Source: a virus
IMG/VR virus record: IMGVR_UViG_3300032047_000108
Span: 1 to 26,560 of that record
Length of the DNA stretch: 26,560 nt
Reading direction: 5' to 3' (one strand)
Shown here: one piece after another, positions 1 through 9,988 of the stretch
Layout of the letters: the number at the start of each line of letters is the position of its first letter
How positions within the stretch are numbered: the stretch's first letter is position 1
Program-made: the position numbers and the translations under genes
Notes under the pieces: model-generated
Told to the model about the DNA's origin: nothing
The model's database searches: none
What the model saw: only the letters and a program-made list of their open reading frames with translations

Positions 1-192
1 ATCAGCAAAACAATTAGCTTCATTAAACTTGGCCCAAAACTCTATAACAACTGGTTTTGTTTTATCATCACCAAATGCTTCATTTGTATTAATAGCTTTT
101 TCAAAACCACTATCGTCTACCCAATATTCCTCAGGAACATCTTGTTGGCTAAAAGATAAAAATGGTATTAAAAGTAAAATTAAGTATTTCAT
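1..192 (-). CDS. secreted thioredoxin-like protein, N-terminal part (runs off left edge)
   Basis: A 64-codon open frame begins with ATG at 192 and is still open at base 1, so only the N-terminus is present. Residues 1-15 (MKYLILLLIPFLSFS) form a signal peptide with a Bacteroidota-like FSQQ junction. Residues 46-61 (KPVVIEFWAKFNEANC) look like the beta strand and active-site turn of a thioredoxin fold (compare VVDFWAxWCxxC). The first Cys of the usual CxxC is absent and only Cys61 is visible, so a redox role is uncertain. Its ATG shares one base with the stop of the upstream 95-residue membrane-protein gene (TAATG), indicating translational coupling and membership of the envelope cassette. The remaining fold lies outside the window. 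The coding frame is solid; the thioredoxin assignment is moderate. Confidence 0.75.
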   Translation of the reverse strand, partial: MKYLILLLIPFLSFSQQDVPEEYWVDDSGFEKAINTNEAFGDDKTKPVVIEFWAKFNEANCFAD

Positions 193-479
193 TATCTATT
201 TTTTTGAATGTCATATAATCTCTCATCGATCTTACTAAGATCTTCTAGTATCTTGTCTACATCTTCTTGCGTATCCATGATTGTTTGACGAATCAATTCG
301 TCTTTTAAATCATATTCTACCCTATCTATTACTGGTTCAGGTTTTTCCATTGCTAAAGCTATATCTGCTTGTAATGTAAACCACATTCCTGCTAGTGTAA
401 TAACAAATCCAACTATCATCCCGATAGTTTTTAAGTCTAGTGTTACTTTAGTTGATTCTCCTATTTCCGGTGCTGCCAT
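192..479 (-). CDS. single-span membrane protein with C-terminal coiled coil (holin or inner-membrane spanin candidate)
   Basis: The 95-residue product has a polar N-terminus (1-15), one hydrophobic segment at about 17-37 (IGMIVGFVITLAGMWF), and a long charged helix at about 53-93 with heptad-like spacing (VDKILEDLSKIDERLYDI), consistent with a coiled coil. There is no cleavage site, so it should stay in the membrane. Architecturally it fits an inner-membrane spanin (Rz-like) or a one-span holin-like protein; the sequence alone cannot separate these. It overlaps the 3' end of the upstream lipoprotein gene by 32 bases, and its stop codon overlaps the start of the thioredoxin-like gene. AAGGA lies almost against the ATG, too close to act as a normal ribosome binding site. 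Function is inferred from topology and neighbours, not from family recognition. Confidence 0.8.
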   Translation of the reverse strand: MAAPEIGESTKVTLDLKTIGMIVGFVITLAGMWFTLQADIALAMEKPEPVIDRVEYDLKDELIRQTIMDTQEDVDKILEDLSKIDERLYDIQKNR

Positions 480-891
480 TTCCTTTAGTTTGATTGTTGT
501 TTGTTGCTGGTTTGTTTATTGAGATTGATGGTTTTACTAAAGCTGGTGAAGACGTGTTAGGTCCAGATCCAGATTGATTAGAATTAGAATTAGAATTAGA
601 ATTAGAATTATTTGGTCTATAAGGTCTTACTACAGGTCTAGTGTAATTATTGTAACCCCAACCGTATTGATAACCTGGACTAGGATGCCAATAACTATAG
701 TAGTAAGGGTAAGAATGATATATATTTTGATACACTCTAGGTCTTAATGAATTAACATCAAGTTGTATTGTATCTCCTTCAGCTGTAACAGCTAAGACTT
801 TTATTGTGTTTGATGGTGCTGGTGTATAGGACGCGCAACTAGCAAACGCCGCAATAACCACCACATAAAGGGCAATTTTCCATACTTTCAT
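448..891 (-). CDS. Tyr/Pro/Asn-rich lipoprotein
   Basis: The 147-residue product starts with a short positively charged N-terminus and a hydrophobic stretch ending in a lipobox-like FASC, with Cys19 as the predicted lipidated residue (signal peptidase II). The mature protein has a short folded-looking part (about 29-52), a Tyr/Pro/Trp-rich segment (53-93), an Asn-Ser dipeptide run (94-106) encoded by a hexanucleotide repeat, and a polar Asn/Thr/Gly-rich tail ending in RRIN. This resembles a flexible periplasm-spanning or surface linker. The start shares one base with the stop of the beta-barrel-like gene (TAATG), and the 3' end overlaps the membrane-protein gene by 32 bases. A lipoprotein overlapping a one-span coiled-coil membrane protein recalls Rz/Rz1 spanin pairs, though the order is reversed. 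The lipoprotein call is fairly sure; the spanin role is inference. Confidence 0.8.
   Translation of the reverse strand: MKVWKIALYVVVIAAFASCASYTPAPSNTIKVLAVTAEGDTIQLDVNSLRPRVYQNIYHSYPYYYSYWHPSPGYQYGWGYNNYTRPVVRPYRPNNSNSNSNSNSNQSGSGPNTSSPALVKPSISINKPATNNNQTKGNGSTGNRRIN
576..610. repeat. hexanucleotide microsatellite (GAATTA) within the lipoprotein gene
   Basis: Five perfect copies of GAATTA occupy 581-610, preceded by a partial copy (GATTA, 576-580). On the coding strand this reads as alternating Asn and Ser codons (residues 94-106). The unit is a multiple of three, so copy-number change by slippage would alter linker length without shifting frame. Confidence 0.9.
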
Positions 892-2066
892 TATTTAAGT
901 GTTATGTTCAGACCAACTGAACTATTATATATTTTACTATCCCAGAATTTAGTATATTCACCTTCAAAGAATATTCCTATGCTTTTACTAAGTTTCCATC
1001 CAAATTGTAATCCGGTTTGATAGTCTTCCCATTGTTCTTTCTCAGCATCTTCTACCAATCCACCTAATCCCCAGTTATTTCTATTATGATAACTAAAAGC
1101 TTCATCACCTTTTACATAGTTGTGATATGGTAATAAATAAGAACCATAAGCGTGTAACCAGAAATTATTTTTATAATGGTAATAGTCAAAACCGACCACA
1201 GGAGACACTACTCCAAAAGCATCTATTGTATCCCATATTTCGTTATTATAACGATTCATAAGATCAGTAAATACTGTCTGTCTGAACTGTAAATCTGTAT
1301 AAGCTACAGTTTGACCTTCTTCATTAATCCAATACCAATCAGATACTGTTTCACCTGAATAACTATCTTCATATGTATAATAAATGTCATCATACCCATA
1401 ATAGAATCCTAAAGTATACCATGGATTAATAGCTTGACCTTGAGCGTTGGTTTCATTTAACCATATCTCTACTGGATTATATCCATAAGGTCTTTCATGT
1501 GTACGATATATAGCTCCTGCAGATAAACTAAACTTTTTACCAATAGGTAATTTAGCTCTTAATTCTGCAGATTTATAATCAAAATTTACTTTTCCTTGTT
1601 TTCTACTTTCTACTTTAACAATATGGTATTTTCCACTGTGTTTTAAGAAATATCTGTGATTTTTAAATACATCATCTCGGGATCTTTCTTTTTCAGTATG
1701 AAATACATATTCAAATCCTTTAATAGCTGAATTAGGAGCTGTCATAGCTACATTAGATTCAGTCCCATCATAATATTGTTTGCCCTTTATTTCATAATCA
1801 AACCTTGCAATCTTACGAATACCAAATCCATAGCGATAATCATGATCATAATAATCAGTTCCATCTACTACAACAGGTACATCGTATAAACTTCCGTTAG
1901 GATTTGTTCTTACAAAATAACTTGGTGCATTTTCTTTTGAGTTTTTAAGATCTCCAGATACATAAAGAGTGCTGTATTTAAAAAAATCTTTAAATAACTT
2001 TTTCTTTTCTTGTCCACTTATATTAAACGTGATAAGTAAACAAAGAGTAAGTAAAATTTGTTTCAT
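891..2066 (-). CDS. outer-membrane beta-barrel-like protein
   Basis: The 391-residue product has a signal peptide (residues 1-18, ending NISGQ). The mature chain is rich in Tyr, Phe, Trp and Gly in alternating polar/aromatic strands: residues about 190-215 (KFSLSAGAIYRTHERPYGYN), about 295-330, and a closing block at about 355-391 (GLQFGWKLSKSIGIFFEGEY, later SVGLNITLK). Alternation and length suit an 8- to 14-strand outer-membrane barrel. The C-terminal residue is Lys, not the aromatic residue usual in BAM substrates, a small argument against. The gene follows the 71-residue exported protein with no gap (TAAATG) and overlaps the lipoprotein start by one base. A barrel placed beside phage structural genes could alter the host surface, for example in superinfection exclusion. 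I do not recognise a named family; topology is inferred by eye. Confidence 0.75.
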   Translation of the reverse strand: MKQILLTLCLLITFNISGQEKKKLFKDFFKYSTLYVSGDLKNSKENAPSYFVRTNPNGSLYDVPVVVDGTDYYDHDYRYGFGIRKIARFDYEIKGKQYYDGTESNVAMTAPNSAIKGFEYVFHTEKERSRDDVFKNHRYFLKHSGKYHIVKVESRKQGKVNFDYKSAELRAKLPIGKKFSLSAGAIYRTHERPYGYNPVEIWLNETNAQGQAINPWYTLGFYYGYDDIYYTYEDSYSGETVSDWYWINEEGQTVAYTDLQFRQTVFTDLMNRYNNEIWDTIDAFGVVSPVVGFDYYHYKNNFWLHAYGSYLLPYHNYVKGDEAFSYHNRNNWGLGGLVEDAEKEQWEDYQTGLQFGWKLSKSIGIFFEGEYTKFWDSKIYNSSVGLNITLK

Positions 2067-2282
2067 TTAGTTTTTCTTTTTACGGTTTTTTCTTTTCTTT
2101 TTACGAGATCTCCAGTCTTTCTCTAACATAGTAGTTACTGTAATAACATTTTTACATGTATCAGTTTTAGTAATTCTTACTCTGTAGTCCTCGATTTTTT
2201 CTACTTTAACCGTTACACATCTTTCTTGTGCGTTTGCTGTTAAACATAGTGATAAAAATAAGATTGTAATTAAATTTTTCAT
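2067..2282 (-). CDS. small exported protein with polybasic tail
   Basis: The 71-residue product has a clear signal peptide (1-18, cleavage after LTANA, leaving QERC). The mature part is about 53 residues with two cysteines (22 and 43) that could form a periplasmic disulphide, a beta-rich middle, and a C-terminus (58-71) that is almost entirely Arg, Lys and Asn. It abuts the 25-residue peptide gene upstream (TAAATG) and the beta-barrel-like gene downstream (TAAATG), so all three are probably translated together. The tail might bind peptidoglycan, lipopolysaccharide or nucleic acid; the sequence does not say which. I recognise no family, so the function is unknown. Confidence 0.75.
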   Translation of the reverse strand: MKNLITILFLSLCLTANAQERCVTVKVEKIEDYRVRITKTDTCKNVITVTTMLEKDWRSRKKKRKNRKKKN

Positions 2283-2360
2283 TTATTTGTATTTTTTAAA
2301 CATTAATTTATATAGCAATTTGTTCCAAGCTTGCTGTAACTTGTCGATAAATTTTTTCAT
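2283..2360 (-). CDS. 25-residue cationic amphipathic peptide
   Basis: This micro-ORF exactly fills the 80-base space between the giant-protein gene and the 71-residue gene. It starts with ATG at 2360, two bases after the upstream stop, and its TAA directly abuts the next ATG at 2282 (TAAATG), the same packing seen throughout the window. The peptide begins MKKFIDKLQQAWNKLLYK and ends LMFKKYK. It carries eight Lys and one Asp, with Phe/Ile/Leu/Trp spaced every three to four residues, so it could form an amphipathic helix with a Lys-rich face. No signal peptide or full membrane span is present. A membrane-active or lysis-associated role is possible but not shown; it could also be a coupling leader. 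Expression is inferred from the packing. Confidence 0.6.
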   Translation of the reverse strand: MKKFIDKLQQAWNKLLYKLMFKKYK

Positions 2361-2362
2361 AG

Positions 2363-5300
2363 TTATGGTTTTTTATAATATTGTATCATTCCGTCATATC
2401 TCTCTATCTGTACATAGTCTTTTCCTAATTTAAATCCTTTTGGTATACCTTCACTCCAAGAGTTTTCACCCGTAAATGGTATTCTTTTTGTAAAGCCATC
2501 TTTTTTTGCTTTACGAACATCAGCTTTAAATTTCTTTTTTAAAGTTTCTTCATCTTGCAGTTCTTGTTGTATTGTACTTTCTCTACCCCAATATGGTAAT
2601 CCAAAGTTCCAACCATTCCAACCAAGTAGTAAAGCTACTCTTTCAAAAGTTCTAGTCTCTTCATCAAAAGCTTGATTAATATTATTATATTTTCTCAAAA
2701 GCCTGTCTATAGGAATATTACCAAATGCAGAAATTAATTGAGCTATAGCTAAATAAGCTGGGTTTTCTAAACTCCACCCTCTTTTTTTGATTTCTTCTCT
2801 ATTCCAACTAAATGTTCTTAAAGCTGTTCTAACATTACGAACCTTTTGATCTATTACAGGTGATATATCAAACAAATTCCAAACTGCTTCTTCATACTTA
2901 GGAGTTTTTCTATTATGCTGGAAGTTTAATTCTCTTGCTACGTTTTTAACAGTTGATACTATAGCTCCACCAAAACCAAGTCCAAATAATAATGAATCCA
3001 TCATTCCATTTATAGTGTTAGCAACTTTATCTTTTTCTCTTTCTTCTTCCTCGTCAAATGCTAAAGCAAACAATGCTTGTTGTAAAGAATTAAATATTAA
3101 ATTTTGAACAGCTACATAATATATAACCCCAGATAAATTACTTAAATCACTTTCACGCTGTGTCATTCCTGGTCTACGTCTTCTATTTACAAAATCAAGC
3201 AACATCTTTTTAGCCTTCCTGTTATACTGCATTGTAACATTTTGGAAAGCTAATATTACACGACCAAATAAACTAGCTTGCTGAGATGATATTTTACTAG
3301 GATTACTAGACTGTTGAGTTTCTTCTGCTATAGCATAAAAATCATCAAACGCAGCCGCTTCAGCTTCAGCTTGTGTATATAATTTACCAGTTTCTGCATT
3401 AACTCTTTTTAAATTAGCTTTGGTTCTATTTATATAAAAAGTAGCTCCACCTGTAGCAATAGCTAAACTATCAAATATTCTTGTAAGTATAAAACCTTTA
3501 TCAAGTAAATAGTTGAGCATTCCTTTAAAACCACCTTGATTAGCTGCCGCCGCAAGCTCTGCTTCGTTAACATTTATTTTTAAACCATCACGCCTGTTTA
3601 CAAGATAATCAGAGTTCATTAACTTCATAACCGCAGGAACATAATCTTTACTAGCAAAAGCTTTAGCAGCTGCATATATATTATTATCACCCCAATTTAT
3701 AAAATTTACATTAGATAACATCTGTAGTGATCCAGATCTTACGTTTAAGAACATTGCTACAGCTACTGAACCATTTAACCAGTCCATCATTTCATTCACT
3801 TGACGAGATCCACTACCTTCATAAGTTGATCTATTACTACCACTCGTCATACGAGTTATTGCGTCTCTTATAGCTTCTACATATTTAGAACCAAAAGCAG
3901 CTTCAAGTTTGTTCAGGTTTTTATCTGAAAAAGCTATATCAACATTTGATTTCCATTCAGTTAAAAGTTTTGCTCTAAAAGTTTTATCTAATCCACTTAG
4001 TATATCTGATTTAATATCTCCTGCGAACCAATATATTGATGGCTTGGGATATTCTCCTTCTTTTTGTATAAGTTGTAATTTATCTGCAAATTGTTGGAAT
4101 TCAAAATTAGTATCAACAGCTTCTACTAAATTATCAATGTCTGTTTTAGAAATACCAGGAATATCCATACCTTGTTTATTCCACAAATAAACTCTCACAG
4201 CTTGAGAAACAGTAAAAGATTTATATCCTATTTCCTCATTTAACGGGTTTTTCATTTTAAAAGGACCATAATTTTTTAAACTTGGAAAAGCTTTTTTAAT
4301 TGCACTAAAATCATTAGCAGTTGTTACTTTAGCAGAAATTAATTCTTGTTCAGCTTTATCATAAGGTTTTATTAAATTATCAATATACCATTTTTGCTGT
4401 GAGGTACCTTTTTTACCAAAACCAAATAGTTTATAACCTAATCCTAAAAAATCATCAGCAGAAGATGTTATTTTAAATTGTCTTAATACTCTTTTAAGAA
4501 ATCCTTTATCTCTTTTCTTTCCTTCTAATCTCGCTTCAACATCTGTTACCTCTGTGGTTGCATCTATACCAGCAGCATCCTCAATAAGATCATTCATTTC
4601 TTGATCAAGCTTTTTTGCTTTATCAGCTATAGCTAGTTGAACTTTAGACTTAACATCTATTTGGCTAAGTATATCTTTAACAGCTTGAACATTAGGTAGA
4701 GCATCATCAGCAAAATAGAAATCATTATAACCATCTGCTGCTTTATCCACAACCCACAAAGCTTTAGCTTCAGGAGTTCCATTCTCTAAGCCAGTTATAT
4801 TTGATAAAGGTAAATCTAACCCTATCCCTTTTAAGAATCTTTGTATAGATTTAGCCGATGCTTGTGGTCTTGCGGTTAATACAAATATATCACCACTACC
4901 AAACTTCTTTTGACGTTTTAACGCTAAGTCCGCTAAAGGTCCTTTTCTTCCTTTTACAACTTTATTAAATTCATCAAAGTTAAAAGTAGCTCCTTCACTT
5001 TCTAGTGTTGAAAATGATTCTGCAAACTCAGCTGGTGTTATTTTAAAAGTTTTACCATTTTGTGTTACAACAACTTTACTATCACTAAAAGCTAAGGTAT
5101 CATCAAAATCAAATACACTTAAACCTTTTCGTTTTTTGAAAGGATTTAAAGCTTTTACTTTTGCTTTTAATGAAGTCAACAATGTTTGCTTTATTTCTTT
5201 AGTTGTTTGTTTTTTATCTGTAATAGTAGGAGCTAATTTAGTAATTTTGTTTTTAGCTTTCTTTTCAGCAGCTGTTAATTCTACTAATTTAGTTTCACCT

Positions 5301-8300
5301 TTACTATTTATATCAAATACTTCACTTAGTGGATTACCATCTAAATCTACTATATTACCAGGATTAATTCCTCCATCAGTTTTTGCTACGTCAGTATTAA
5401 AGTATCTTTGCCACCATTTTCCATCAAAAGGATTCCATCCTTTAGGCATGTTTCTTTGTAATTTTGCTTTCCTTAATTTATTATCATCTGCTTTATCTAA
5501 AGCTATTACTTTATAATTATCTATAACTAAATCATAAATATCATTAAATCTTTTACCCTCTAAAATAGCATCTAATAAATATTGATACGCGGCGGTAGCT
5601 GGCATAGCGTGTTCATATTCGTATCTTTGTTTAGGATTTAAAGAATACCCAAATATTTGAGCACCCATTTTATGCCAATGACCACGATGGTTGGCTACTA
5701 ATTTTAAATAAGTGGCAATATCTGGAGCAATAGTTTTATCATCTGCAATAAGTTTATTAATTCTCTGCCATAATACTTTATGTATTTTACCTACTTTATC
5801 ATTAAAAGTATCTGCTTTTTCTTTTATCTCAGCTGGTGTTCCTTTAAATATAGTGCTATAACTTGAAACAGAAAAATTATCTACACCATCTATATCATCA
5901 CCAAATTTGGTTTCAGGGTCACTAAGCATGTCACTAATTTCTTCTCTTAACTTAGTAAGCGCGGCTGCTTTCTTTTTATCATATCTAGGATTTGGTTTTC
6001 CTTTATTAGGCCCTCGTGTTATTGTAGGGCTCATGCTTATATCATAATCCGAACCACTTGTTGCAAATACATGTCCTCCTTGTGGGCCAACCCACGCTGC
6101 TCTTGGTAATAATTGTACTACCTTTCTATACGTATCAACAATTGTTTTTCTACCCTCTTTTGTTAATACTAATGTAGGTAAGTCGAGTGTTTTATTTAAT
6201 CCTCTTTTTGTTAATAAATCATCTATTTTAGATCTTCCTTTTAATTTTAAATCAAAATCTTTTACTAATTCTTTTAGCTTTTTTTGATTAAAATCTAATG
6301 CTGTTTTAAGCTTTTTTCTAATAATACTAGTAATATCTTTTATTTGATTCCTAGTAAGTGAATATTTATCTTGAAGTGCATTAATAAAATCATTTATAAA
6401 TTTATTTAAAGCTTCTTTAAATGGTTTACCTTTTTTAATAAGGGATTGATAACCTTTTAATGCGGTTTTTAAAGCTTGAGCAATTGCCCCAGGAGTAGGG
6501 CCACTACCTGCAGCTCCTCCAGATTCTTTAATTCTTGGCTCTAAAACATTTTCAATAAATTTATCTATTTTACTTGTTACATCTAAAGTTGTATCTTCTT
6601 TAGTTCTTTGATCCATTTTAGATTCTAAATCATTTATAAAGTCAACAGCATTTTTATCTTTACCTAAAGCATCCTGCAGTTTACTCATAAACACATCATC
6701 ATTTTTCAATTCTATTAATTGCTCCATAGCAATTTCAGTGCTCATTTTTTGAAACAATCCTAATCTATTTTGATTACCCTTTTTAAAATAATCTTTTACT
6801 TCTTGAACCATTTTAGGTGTTATTTCACCTGGTAATAAATATGTATCTGGTCTACTATAAGATTTTTTACCATCTTCTTTTACAACAACCTTGTCAGATT
6901 TACCTATTTTTTTTACACCTAATATTTCACGTAATCCAGATTGTTTAATATACGCAGTTGGTAGTTGAGATATAAAATCAGCATCAACTATATTGTCAAC
7001 AAATTTTGGATAACCTTTTTTAAATGATCCTATTTTGTCACCAAGTATATTCCATTTTCCTGCTACTACATCATTTTTTTCAGCTCTAGCTTTTGCATCT
7101 CCAAACATAGCGTTTATAGCACTTACAATACCCGTGGTATTTTTACCTTTAGCTACTTGGTCTAATATTGCTTGACCAGTTTCATTTTCAATTTGTTTTC
7201 TAGCTTCTATTCCAACAACCTCATTTACTTTTTCATTTGAACCTAAATATCTTTTATCTCTTTTACCAGTAACTTCTTCGGTTTTAGAATCAAAATCTTT
7301 TTGAGATGTAGTTTCTAAAGATACTCCTTTTTCTTGCAATACATCTTGACTAACTTGTTGACTTTTTCTAGTTGCTTCTTCTACAATTTTAGGACCAATT
7401 CTTTTAGCTATCTGATTCATATATGTAGAAGCTTCTGATTTTGTTGGATCAAAATTTCTAGTAAAACTATCAAACTGCATATTTAAAAGACTAGTAACTT
7501 CTTGATTAACTTCTGGGTTACTTAAATTAAGAGGAACTCCTCTTTTTCCAGCCCATCTTTGCAACGCGTCTCTACCAACAGCTTGGTATTGCTTTTTTAG
7601 TTTGTTTATATTTTTAGAATCACCTTCTTTATAGTCTTTAGTTAATTCTGATAATTTTTTACCTTTTTGCTCTGCTTCAAATTCTGCTATTAAATCTTCA
7701 GCTGATTGCTCTGTAAGATCCATTTCGCCTTCATTAATATCCATATCACCTTCTTGCGCACCAGTAGGTAGTATACTCATACCCACAGTGTTAGCTCTTT
7801 CAATTTCTGCTTGCTTTATAGACTCAGCTAATTTTAAATTTATAAATTCTAATTTTTCTTTTAGTTTTACAGCTGCTTCAGGACTTACTTTTTCTAAATC
7901 TTTAATAGCTTTTTCTAGTCTTTCTTTTTCTAACATTAAACCTGTAGCTCTAACGTTTGTGCTAAGACCAAATGGTTTTAAAAGATTAACAGCTTGTTGA
8001 GTTTGTATAAATTTTTCTTTTATAGAGTTAGATTTTTCAACAGTAATTTTCCCTGATTTTGTTTTTGATTGTAATTCTTGCTCTAATCTCTTTTTAGCAC
8101 CTGCTATTTGTGTAAATTGTATTTGACCTTCACTTGTAATATCATCTTTATCAAATAGTTCATAACTATTATCTACATTAGATTTTTTTAGTATATTATT
8201 TTGATTTTTAGTATCTATAGCTTTTGAAGCTAAATTTGTGGTAGTAGCAGTACCAGAAACTCCAAAACCAGAAACTGAACCTATAATACCAGCGTCTAAT

Positions 8301-9988
8301 ATTTCAACCCAAGCTTTATTCCAATCAACTTCTTTACGTTCCAACGCAGCATTTGAAGCGTTTTCAATAGCTGTTTGCATTGCCTCTGTTAAACCTTCAC
8401 CTCCACTATCTGCTAATAAATCAATGGCATAATCTTTAAGGGTTCTTTCTATTGCTTCTTTAGATTGACCTTTTAAAGCTGAGTAAAGTTTATTACCTAT
8501 TCTACCTGAAAACCTTTCTAGTATACTATTAGCGGCACCAACAACAGTATGATGAGTTAAATTTTTTACACTTATTTCACCCGCTTTTATTCTATCTTCT
8601 AATTGTTTTTTCTTTTCAACATAATTAGGGTCTGTTACAGAAAGATTTATCAATTCTTTATAAGCATCACTAGCATCAGTGTTTTCATCAAATTCTCCTC
8701 CTGCAGCTGTTGAAATACCTATTACTGCTAGACCAGGAATACCCATTGTAGAAACTGCCATATAAGGTAAACTAGCAACAGCTTCTTTAGTTGTTCTACT
8801 TAAAGCTCTACCTAAACCAGTAAAATCTCCATCGGATACAGCTTTGCTAATACTTTCAGAAACACCCATTTCATATTTAAATATTTTTTCATCTAGCTGA
8901 TCAATGTGATTATCTATATTATCTGCAATATCTATTGCGTAATCACCAACTTCTTTACCAGAATATTTTTCAAAAGCTAGTTTAAAAGGTTCATAACCTG
9001 GTTGAGCCAAAGCGCTAAATATGTTTTCAATTGTTCCAAGTTTAGAATTAGCAATTAAATCGTTTATAGCTTTTGCTTCTGCAGAAGCGTCACCAGCATA
9101 TCTTTTTTCAATTTCATCTAATTGATCAGGATAAAAAGCTCTTGCAGCTATTTTATTAGCAAAACTATCTCCTCTTAATAAACCAGATGTTATAGTAGAT
9201 ATAGTGTTTACGGTTCTATAAACCGTGTCTTTACTAAAAAATCCAGGATCTTGAGCATCGTGTATTTGTTTTCTTTTTTTATCGTAATCTGGTACTATTC
9301 TTTCTAGCTCTTTTACTTTTTTATTTAAAGCGTTTTTTTCTTCTTCATTTAAATTATCACTTTTAGCAGTTAATTTAAGTATATCTATTTTTCTTTTTAA
9401 ATCTTCTGTTTTATTTTCAGCCTCAAAATCTTCATCTAATTTAAAACCCGCTTTTTGAATAGCTGATAATTCATTTTCATTATATTCGTATAGTTTTAAA
9501 GTAGCGTTTTTTAGGTCTTTAATTTCATTACCATCTTCATCTACACTAGGAACAAATAAATCGTTGTATACATCTGCTGATCTTATTGATAAATCTATAC
9601 CTTCATTTATAGTATTTTTTAAATTATTTATAAATTCAGTGTCATTTCTTTTTAAAGCTCTTATTATTTTTCTTTTATTAGGAAAATCTTTAACAGCATA
9701 AGAAGTGGCTTTGTTTATTAAACGATCAGCTTCTGTTGAAACTTCTTCTAATTCAGTATAAGTAAAAGGAGTAGGTGACTCTAACGTGTCAACTTCTGTA
9801 GAAGCTATTTTAGTTTCTTTTGGTTCATCACCAATAACAACTTCATCAAGTACCTCTGTTCCAATAGGTTTATCTTCCTCAGTTTCAACTGGAGTTGGAT
9901 TGTCAGCTTGCCACTGTTTTACTTTATTGTCTAGATCATCTCCATACAAACCTTGTGACTGCCACTCTATTATTTTTTCTTCTAACAT
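2363..9988 (-). CDS. giant multidomain virion protein with HAD phosphatase domain (putative ejected/polyvalent protein)
   Basis: The 2541-residue product is the largest in the window and lies last in the virion module, where internal ejected proteins are usually encoded. The N-terminus is acidic and helical. Hydrophobic stretches lie at about 400-435 and 560-585, a coiled coil at 625-735, and a segment with weak sigma-region-2 resemblance at 808-866 (FDPTKSEASTYM from 846). A His-rich block spans 1434-1460 (HRGHWHK, YEYEHAMP). A HAD phosphatase domain lies at 1622-1770: motif I FDFDDTL (Asp1627, Asp1629), motif II Thr1705 in LTARP, a candidate motif III Lys1742, motif IV Asp1761/Asp1762. A helical C-terminal region (about 2050-2350) contains FLNVRSGSLQMLSNVNF and two further hydrophobic segments, reminiscent of domains in phage polyvalent proteins. 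No RNA-polymerase DxDGD motif was found. The start abuts the upstream stop (TAAATG). Packaging in the virion is inferred. Confidence 0.85.
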   Translation of the reverse strand: MLEEKIIEWQSQGLYGDDLDNKVKQWQADNPTPVETEEDKPIGTEVLDEVVIGDEPKETKIASTEVDTLESPTPFTYTELEEVSTEADRLINKATSYAVKDFPNKRKIIRALKRNDTEFINNLKNTINEGIDLSIRSADVYNDLFVPSVDEDGNEIKDLKNATLKLYEYNENELSAIQKAGFKLDEDFEAENKTEDLKRKIDILKLTAKSDNLNEEEKNALNKKVKELERIVPDYDKKRKQIHDAQDPGFFSKDTVYRTVNTISTITSGLLRGDSFANKIAARAFYPDQLDEIEKRYAGDASAEAKAINDLIANSKLGTIENIFSALAQPGYEPFKLAFEKYSGKEVGDYAIDIADNIDNHIDQLDEKIFKYEMGVSESISKAVSDGDFTGLGRALSRTTKEAVASLPYMAVSTMGIPGLAVIGISTAAGGEFDENTDASDAYKELINLSVTDPNYVEKKKQLEDRIKAGEISVKNLTHHTVVGAANSILERFSGRIGNKLYSALKGQSKEAIERTLKDYAIDLLADSGGEGLTEAMQTAIENASNAALERKEVDWNKAWVEILDAGIIGSVSGFGVSGTATTTNLASKAIDTKNQNNILKKSNVDNSYELFDKDDITSEGQIQFTQIAGAKKRLEQELQSKTKSGKITVEKSNSIKEKFIQTQQAVNLLKPFGLSTNVRATGLMLEKERLEKAIKDLEKVSPEAAVKLKEKLEFINLKLAESIKQAEIERANTVGMSILPTGAQEGDMDINEGEMDLTEQSAEDLIAEFEAEQKGKKLSELTKDYKEGDSKNINKLKKQYQAVGRDALQRWAGKRGVPLNLSNPEVNQEVTSLLNMQFDSFTRNFDPTKSEASTYMNQIAKRIGPKIVEEATRKSQQVSQDVLQEKGVSLETTSQKDFDSKTEEVTGKRDKRYLGSNEKVNEVVGIEARKQIENETGQAILDQVAKGKNTTGIVSAINAMFGDAKARAEKNDVVAGKWNILGDKIGSFKKGYPKFVDNIVDADFISQLPTAYIKQSGLREILGVKKIGKSDKVVVKEDGKKSYSRPDTYLLPGEITPKMVQEVKDYFKKGNQNRLGLFQKMSTEIAMEQLIELKNDDVFMSKLQDALGKDKNAVDFINDLESKMDQRTKEDTTLDVTSKIDKFIENVLEPRIKESGGAAGSGPTPGAIAQALKTALKGYQSLIKKGKPFKEALNKFINDFINALQDKYSLTRNQIKDITSIIRKKLKTALDFNQKKLKELVKDFDLKLKGRSKIDDLLTKRGLNKTLDLPTLVLTKEGRKTIVDTYRKVVQLLPRAAWVGPQGGHVFATSGSDYDISMSPTITRGPNKGKPNPRYDKKKAAALTKLREEISDMLSDPETKFGDDIDGVDNFSVSSYSTIFKGTPAEIKEKADTFNDKVGKIHKVLWQRINKLIADDKTIAPDIATYLKLVANHRGHWHKMGAQIFGYSLNPKQRYEYEHAMPATAAYQYLLDAILEGKRFNDIYDLVIDNYKVIALDKADDNKLRKAKLQRNMPKGWNPFDGKWWQRYFNTDVAKTDGGINPGNIVDLDGNPLSEVFDINSKGETKLVELTAAEKKAKNKITKLAPTITDKKQTTKEIKQTLLTSLKAKVKALNPFKKRKGLSVFDFDDTLAFSDSKVVVTQNGKTFKITPAEFAESFSTLESEGATFNFDEFNKVVKGRKGPLADLALKRQKKFGSGDIFVLTARPQASAKSIQRFLKGIGLDLPLSNITGLENGTPEAKALWVVDKAADGYNDFYFADDALPNVQAVKDILSQIDVKSKVQLAIADKAKKLDQEMNDLIEDAAGIDATTEVTDVEARLEGKKRDKGFLKRVLRQFKITSSADDFLGLGYKLFGFGKKGTSQQKWYIDNLIKPYDKAEQELISAKVTTANDFSAIKKAFPSLKNYGPFKMKNPLNEEIGYKSFTVSQAVRVYLWNKQGMDIPGISKTDIDNLVEAVDTNFEFQQFADKLQLIQKEGEYPKPSIYWFAGDIKSDILSGLDKTFRAKLLTEWKSNVDIAFSDKNLNKLEAAFGSKYVEAIRDAITRMTSGSNRSTYEGSGSRQVNEMMDWLNGSVAVAMFLNVRSGSLQMLSNVNFINWGDNNIYAAAKAFASKDYVPAVMKLMNSDYLVNRRDGLKINVNEAELAAAANQGGFKGMLNYLLDKGFILTRIFDSLAIATGGATFYINRTKANLKRVNAETGKLYTQAEAEAAAFDDFYAIAEETQQSSNPSKISSQQASLFGRVILAFQNVTMQYNRKAKKMLLDFVNRRRRPGMTQRESDLSNLSGVIYYVAVQNLIFNSLQQALFALAFDEEEEREKDKVANTINGMMDSLLFGLGFGGAIVSTVKNVARELNFQHNRKTPKYEEAVWNLFDISPVIDQKVRNVRTALRTFSWNREEIKKRGWSLENPAYLAIAQLISAFGNIPIDRLLRKYNNINQAFDEETRTFERVALLLGWNGWNFGLPYWGRESTIQQELQDEETLKKKFKADVRKAKKDGFTKRIPFTGENSWSEGIPKGFKLGKDYVQIERYDGMIQYYKKP

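Follow-up and report, generated by a model that had tools for sequence, protein, structure and literature searches.

The window, a 26,560-nucleotide stretch of viral DNA (IMG/VR record IMGVR_UViG_3300032047_000108), contains a 25-codon open reading frame that, judged by its substitution pattern among relatives, is a real and strongly conserved gene. Sequence comparison indicates that its product belongs to a new family of short peptides outside Pfam and PHROGs, restricted to phage contigs within the sets searched. The micro-gene is frequently found in proximity to endolysin and holin genes, and the peptide may be an unrecognised part of the phage cell-lysis machinery.

Organization of the micro-gene locus

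The micro-ORF runs on the minus strand from an ATG at 2360 to a TAA at 2283. It is separated by 2 bases from the giant ORF, which ends at 2363, and by 0 bases from the next ORF, which starts at 2282. Translation and ORF coordinates confirm the complete frame and the tight junctions described in the first-pass annotation of this DNA. The features of the region are as follows.

2363..9988, minus strand: gene of a giant 2541-aa protein (ORF; C-terminal family alignment)
2283..2360, minus strand: 25-codon micro-gene encoding MKKFIDKLQQAWNKLLYKLMFKKYK, intact in 9/17 contigs found through neighbouring genes, with relatives in at least 162 loci
2295..2327, minus strand: core motif W12-K22 of the micro-peptide, W-N-x-L-x-Y-x-L-M-F-K (alignment of 24 members)
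2067..2282, minus strand: 71-aa protein with a signal-peptide-like N-terminus and a very basic C-terminus, directly downstream of the micro-gene (ORF and sequence)
891..2066, minus strand: 391-aa exported protein, the conserved downstream neighbour in relatives (ORF and sequence)
448..891, minus strand: 147-aa candidate lipoprotein with a lipobox-like ASC (sequence and lipobox scan)
192..479, minus strand: 95-aa protein, phrog_1009 (unknown function), with one hydrophobic stretch followed by a charged, likely coiled tail
1..192, minus strand: exported thioredoxin-like gene, start only, cut by the contig end; a homologue matches PF00085

The order is thus giant gene, micro-gene, small exported basic protein, 391-aa exported protein, lipoprotein, membrane/coil protein and, at the contig end, the thioredoxin-like gene. 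The giant protein has no Pfam or PHROGs match, and no family match was found for the 71-aa or the 391-aa protein; the latter is perhaps an outer-membrane protein. Among relatives, the presence of the 71-aa protein gene is independent of that of the micro-gene. The candidate lipoprotein is possibly an o-spanin-type protein, and the 95-aa protein is holin- or i-spanin-like by shape only. Their genes (192-891) overlap by 32 nt, an arrangement with the shape of an o-spanin/i-spanin pair in reversed order, and the two could be spanins. Homologues of the 95-aa protein often precede a thioredoxin-like gene and in some loci precede an endolysin. No endolysin is seen within the window, whose contig ends first. 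In three longer relatives (L030, L052 and L062), the micro-gene is followed after 2.0-3.2 kb by an M15 endolysin, and the endolysin of the window phage is expected beyond the thioredoxin-like gene.

A separate feature was observed at the starts of genes of the 391-aa type. In L003 (region 6216-6275) and in homologous genes, a short Cys-rich frame (14-19 codons, MxNE..CPxCGGxCGxC), out of frame with the gene, lies over the signal peptide. It is present in 22 of 52 distinct gene starts and absent in the window, and could represent a double-coded mini-gene or result from the codon usage of the signal peptide.

Relatives of the portal and capsid proteins were found in an uncultured podovirus and in phages of Flavobacterium, Cellulophaga and Maribacter, with identities below 60% throughout; the host is probably a flavobacterium or a relative. 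The DNA of window positions 1-8000 gave no match to phages.

A simulation with the composition of the window returned a comparable frame, with an ATG within the first 9 nt and a stop near the end, in 3,851 of 400,000 random 80-mers (~1%). The window sequence alone therefore cannot decide whether the micro-ORF is coding. This frequency speaks for a chance open frame, a reading contradicted by all of the comparative data below and already refuted in our assessment.

Conservation in relatives

Two scans querying the neighbouring proteins, with the micro-gene unused, yielded 17 distinct contigs (L003 and L016 represent one contig). In nine of them the gap is occupied by an uninterrupted frame, 25 or 29 codons long. 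No such frame is present in the other eight; in seven of these the gap is closed and the stop of the giant gene overlaps the next ATG, and the remaining contig, L017, is more distantly related. The peptide does not occur elsewhere in the eight records (0/8), while the same check was positive in 2/2 carrier records. Two patterns had been named beforehand as speaking against the gene: a disrupted frame in a gap of unchanged spacing, and conservation of the DNA but not of the peptide. Neither was found among the 17 contigs, and a broken frame with the gap retained occurs in 0/17. The eight contigs that lack the micro-gene indicate that it is dispensable for some phages.

Codon differences were counted over 19 codons in all 45 pairs of ten carriers, including the window, which had been chosen without the motif. 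We found 217 synonymous and 73 nonsynonymous differences. Since neutrality would favour nonsynonymous changes, this points to a coding sequence. The dN/dS-type comparison proposed at the outset thus gives a synonymous excess, and the initial suggestion of a hidden gene is well supported by relatives that keep the frame intact with mostly synonymous differences. Between the window and each relative, pS ranges from 0.35 to 1.04 and pN from 0 to 0.082. The window differs from L003 by 3 synonymous and 0 nonsynonymous changes, and from L006 by 8 and 0. Compared with L103, one of 19 core residues differs, while 10 further codons differ synonymously. Peptide columns 15-25 are invariant across the eight distinct sequences of the neighbour-found relatives.

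These data also bear on the proposal that the frame is a translational coupler or spacer whose peptide is irrelevant. The tight 4-nt and 1-nt overlaps seen at its junctions would suit such a role, but the amino acid sequence is strongly conserved against synonymous drift, and the gap closes completely in 7/8 relatives without the gene. The substitution pattern already disfavours this proposal, and we regard it as very improbable.

A family of short phage peptides

DNA patterns for the C-terminal part, the middle and the N-terminal half of the peptide matched 51, 116 and 111 IMG/VR stretches, respectively, and a looser core pattern gave at least 119 matches. A complete small frame is found in 51/51 of the C-terminal matches, where the pattern fixed only the last codons and the stop; one of them (L042) is without an ATG start. 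Among the matches listed, with repeat contigs removed, 162 of 164 loci contain a short frame with W-N-x-[LF]-x-Y-x-L-M-F-K. The family therefore comprises at least 162 loci, most of them retrieved with DNA patterns in which part of the motif is predetermined, with members of 22-58 aa. Many records are fragments, and absence refers to the record, not to the phage.

In an alignment of 24 members, mostly fetched by patterns fixing part of the core, the W, N, Y, L, M, F and K of the core are invariant and the first L is present in at least 90%. N-termini are variable, and C-termini may bear basic or Cys-rich tails. A diverged member in L208 (about 4748-4864) was reached through its endolysin neighbour with no motif filter. 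A Cys-rich tail follows the conserved core in L208, L250, L254, L241 and L268. Over 92 distinct cores pN/pS is 0.118, a value biased low by motif-based fetching, for which the neighbour-found set is the fair one.

When the 24 members were scanned against Pfam and PHROGs, no family was matched by more than one of them (best E 0.043). A profile search of 395 genomes from the order of genome G011 gave 2 matches, which are probably phage contigs in bins. Matches in genome collections named Woesearchaeota, Bacteroidetes and Aliivibrio correspond to four loci; because three of the four have the giant gene, these too are probably phage contigs in bins. The carriers are many uncultured phages, probably infecting Bacteroidota. 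A profile search of seven named phage records found no family member. Cultured phages gave no tblastn match with the 25-aa peptide, a search in which the low-complexity filter masks about half of the query and which is not evidence of absence, nor with the 36-aa form, likewise weakened by masking. With a 41-aa form, matches had E=2 or worse; the best falls on the strand opposite an early Cellulophaga phage gene and was taken as chance. A small-gene catalogue of phage genomes may include the family with no function assigned.

Genomic context and the link to lysis genes

Among the matches listed, 11 loci show the order T7-type holin, micro-gene, M15 endolysin. They look like one or two lineages, and in most the micro-gene overlaps by 4 nt on both sides. 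The holin belongs to phrog_920 and the endolysin to phrog_894 of PHROGs; the Pfam holin match is below cut-off. In four close relatives that lack the micro-gene (L174, L179, L181 and L185), the holin and endolysin genes abut, indicating that the micro-gene is an insert in the lysis pair. It is possible that a peptide inserted so exactly regulates lysis timing, as an antiholin-like holin partner or an endolysin-associated peptide. The partners vary, however, between T7-type holins, other membrane proteins, M15 and amidase endolysins, while the core remains unchanged, and we consider such a regulator quite improbable.

Other arrangements are common. The micro-gene lies directly after the giant gene in 61/162 loci among the matches listed. 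In an endolysin-based scan, it was directly upstream of the endolysin in 13/80 loci. Other endolysins or small membrane proteins can also be its neighbours, on either side, and homologues follow amidase endolysins that are unrelated to M15. The position at the head of an envelope-directed cassette, as first described, holds in the window but is not general; in other phages the gene follows the giant gene or an amidase, or separates holin from endolysin.

We assessed the distance to endolysin genes in 16 records of at least 60 kb, picked by length from the listed matches. Each contains the peptide once; 13 have an M15 endolysin, two an amidase and one neither. With distances taken as circular, the gaps between micro-gene and endolysin in the 15 records are 42, 42, 47, 54 and 66 bp in five, 382, 1200, 2659, 2823, 3136 and 3334 bp in six, and 27.6-31.6 kb in the remaining four. 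Uniform placement predicts 0.05 records at distances up to 100 bp and 1.6 at distances up to 3.5 kb, against 5/15 and 11/15 observed; because related phages are counted separately, these figures are descriptive.

A stricter null placed the gene at late junctions of the same locus; opposite-strand genes of less than 150 aa were dropped before counting. Upstream neighbours are co-directional in 117/117 cases, partly by construction since the short opposite-strand genes had been dropped. Adjacency to an endolysin was observed in 23/107 loci against 16.3 expected, a value reached in 71 of 3000 shuffles in one of nine tests, and no endolysin excess was present at ±2 or ±3 genes. An earlier version of the test, for endolysin or holin, gave 13/64 against 9.8. 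Adjacency to the giant gene was observed in 41/107 loci against 28.2 expected, with 0 of 3000 shuffles as high. Under this null, endolysin adjacency is weak and giant-gene adjacency is stronger.

The latter, together with the 61 loci directly after the giant gene, could indicate that the peptide is an accessory to the giant late protein, acting for instance when that protein folds, is packaged or is ejected from the virion. The conserved C-terminal domain of the giant protein occurs across many uncultured phages and is common to many, not all, micro-gene carriers. Its family was found in only 3 of 12 micro-carrying records searched and is absent from nine, some of 52-63 kb, although records may be fragments. 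In addition, the eight relatives without the micro-gene were found through the giant protein or its neighbour. We therefore judge this role distinctly unlikely. Taken together, these data place the micro-gene among the small late genes, where lysis genes are frequent neighbours and there is no single obligate partner.

A candidate lipoprotein lies within 5 kb of the micro-gene in 13/162 loci among the matches listed, the window included, by a crude lipobox scan in which some candidates look spurious. Most loci thus have no obvious o-spanin nearby, although spanin genes may lie elsewhere. An apparent contrast in lipoprotein matches between micro-carrying (1/14) and micro-lacking (22/43) endolysin loci was rejected, as the matches checked were out of frame inside a 742-744-aa gene.

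Properties and predicted action of the peptide

The 25-aa peptide has a net charge of +7. Its hydrophobic moment is 0.38 against a shuffled value of 0.20, with p=0.054 over the full length and p=0.027 over the 18-residue core; the mean Eisenberg value of the core is 0.14. The regular spacing of hydrophobic residues noted initially is therefore marginal. A 36-aa homologue was modelled as one helix with a mean pLDDT of 84.6. The 25-aa sequence contains no signal, no Cys or lipobox, no transmembrane segment and no long hydrophobic run. It thus has neither the lipobox or N-terminal transmembrane segment of a spanin nor the transmembrane helix, at least one, of a holin, and it agrees with the description of a disruptin as a short, phage-encoded cationic peptide. 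A PDB profile search returned CAP18 as the sole match, at chance level (E=0.67) and outside the conserved core.

Our favoured prediction, held at slightly under even confidence, is that the peptide is a cationic, helical lysis accessory with a disruptin-like action, encoded by a gene that would be expressed late in infection. The signal-less peptide made from the micro-gene would build up in the cytoplasm. Opening of the inner membrane by the holin would let it out, and the released peptide would then assist the endolysin by helping to break down the envelope, most probably at the outer membrane, in the manner proposed for disruptins. The membrane target, the release through the holin and the disruption of the outer membrane are parts of this scheme that we infer. 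The predicted lysis role, put forward in the first-pass annotation, draws support from the placement of homologues beside holin and endolysin genes.

The conservation of the core suggests a further aspect. The polar and aromatic residues N13, Y17, M20 and F21 are invariant, a degree of specificity that general membrane activity would not require. With the polar N13 and Y17 part of a near-invariant core, the peptide is more likely to make a specific contact than to act through composition alone. This keeps alive the alternative that the peptide inhibits or modulates a conserved protein of the host (or phage) in a sequence-specific way, being encoded by a mobile late accessory gene and not primarily membrane-active. 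In its favour, the core is almost frozen while the neighbours change completely, N13, Y17 and M20 on the polar face are invariant (the search patterns predetermine some of these positions), the neighbour-found set likewise shows no variation in columns 15-25, and the comparison with L103 sets a single core residue against ten further synonymous codons. Repeated placement in lysis blocks would be unexpected for a generic host-takeover gene, and no host-like sequence was found, the 2/395 genome matches being probably phage contigs in bins. We see this alternative as somewhat unlikely.

Relation to known systems

The lysis accessory reading can be compared with several known systems. The phiKT peptide is 56 aa long. 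The micro-peptide is half that size or less and, compared by its general properties, resembles disruptins in being short, cationic, phage-encoded and, as modelled for a homologue, helical, in phages that have a holin and endolysin and often no evident o-spanin-like lipoprotein nearby. It differs in its near-invariant motif, in contrast to the generic composition of disruptins. The phiKT peptide is the archetype of this class (Holt et al. 2022, as cited in PMC12819732).

In Gram-negative lysis the micro-peptide would take the third position, the one that spanins occupy (PMC6139136); unlike these, it is a 25-aa peptide without a signal, lipobox cysteine or transmembrane helix. T7-type holins (phrog_920, PF10746) are small like the micro-peptide and are its neighbours in the holin, micro-gene, endolysin loci, but the micro-peptide does not match them in sequence and lacks a long hydrophobic stretch. 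The cationic antimicrobial peptides CAP18 and LL-37 are similar in charge and length, whereas the CAP18 match mentioned above is of chance level and lies outside the core.

Spanins were not found in 91 of 677 phages, including Bacteroides phage B124-14 and Croceibacter phages P2559S and P2559Y, and the same source asks whether another route of outer-membrane disruption exists (PMC6139136). Whether spanin-less phages carry disruptins is described as open, and the diversity of disruptins as hampering prediction, in PMC12819732. Flavobacterial phage holins and spanins are mentioned in passages of PMC8776804 that do not describe this peptide. A full-text literature search for KLMFKKYK returned 0 papers, and literature on disruptins, Flavobacterium and Cellulophaga phages, spanins and lysis cassettes, judged by title and the start of the abstract, described no such peptide.

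A bolder version of the lysis accessory reading, which we consider unlikely as it stands, is that these are undescribed, widespread lysis peptides of Bacteroidota phages. Here, a cationic helix with the W-N-x-L-x-Y-x-L-M-F-K core would disrupt or disarm the outer membrane through a specific conserved target, providing a third route besides spanins and generic disruptins. The searchable motif, the clean insertion between holin and endolysin in some phages and the absence of the gene in near relatives make the question of whether spanin-less phages have another route through the outer membrane testable. Such a family would mean that Bacteroidota envelopes are targeted by a new type of peptide.
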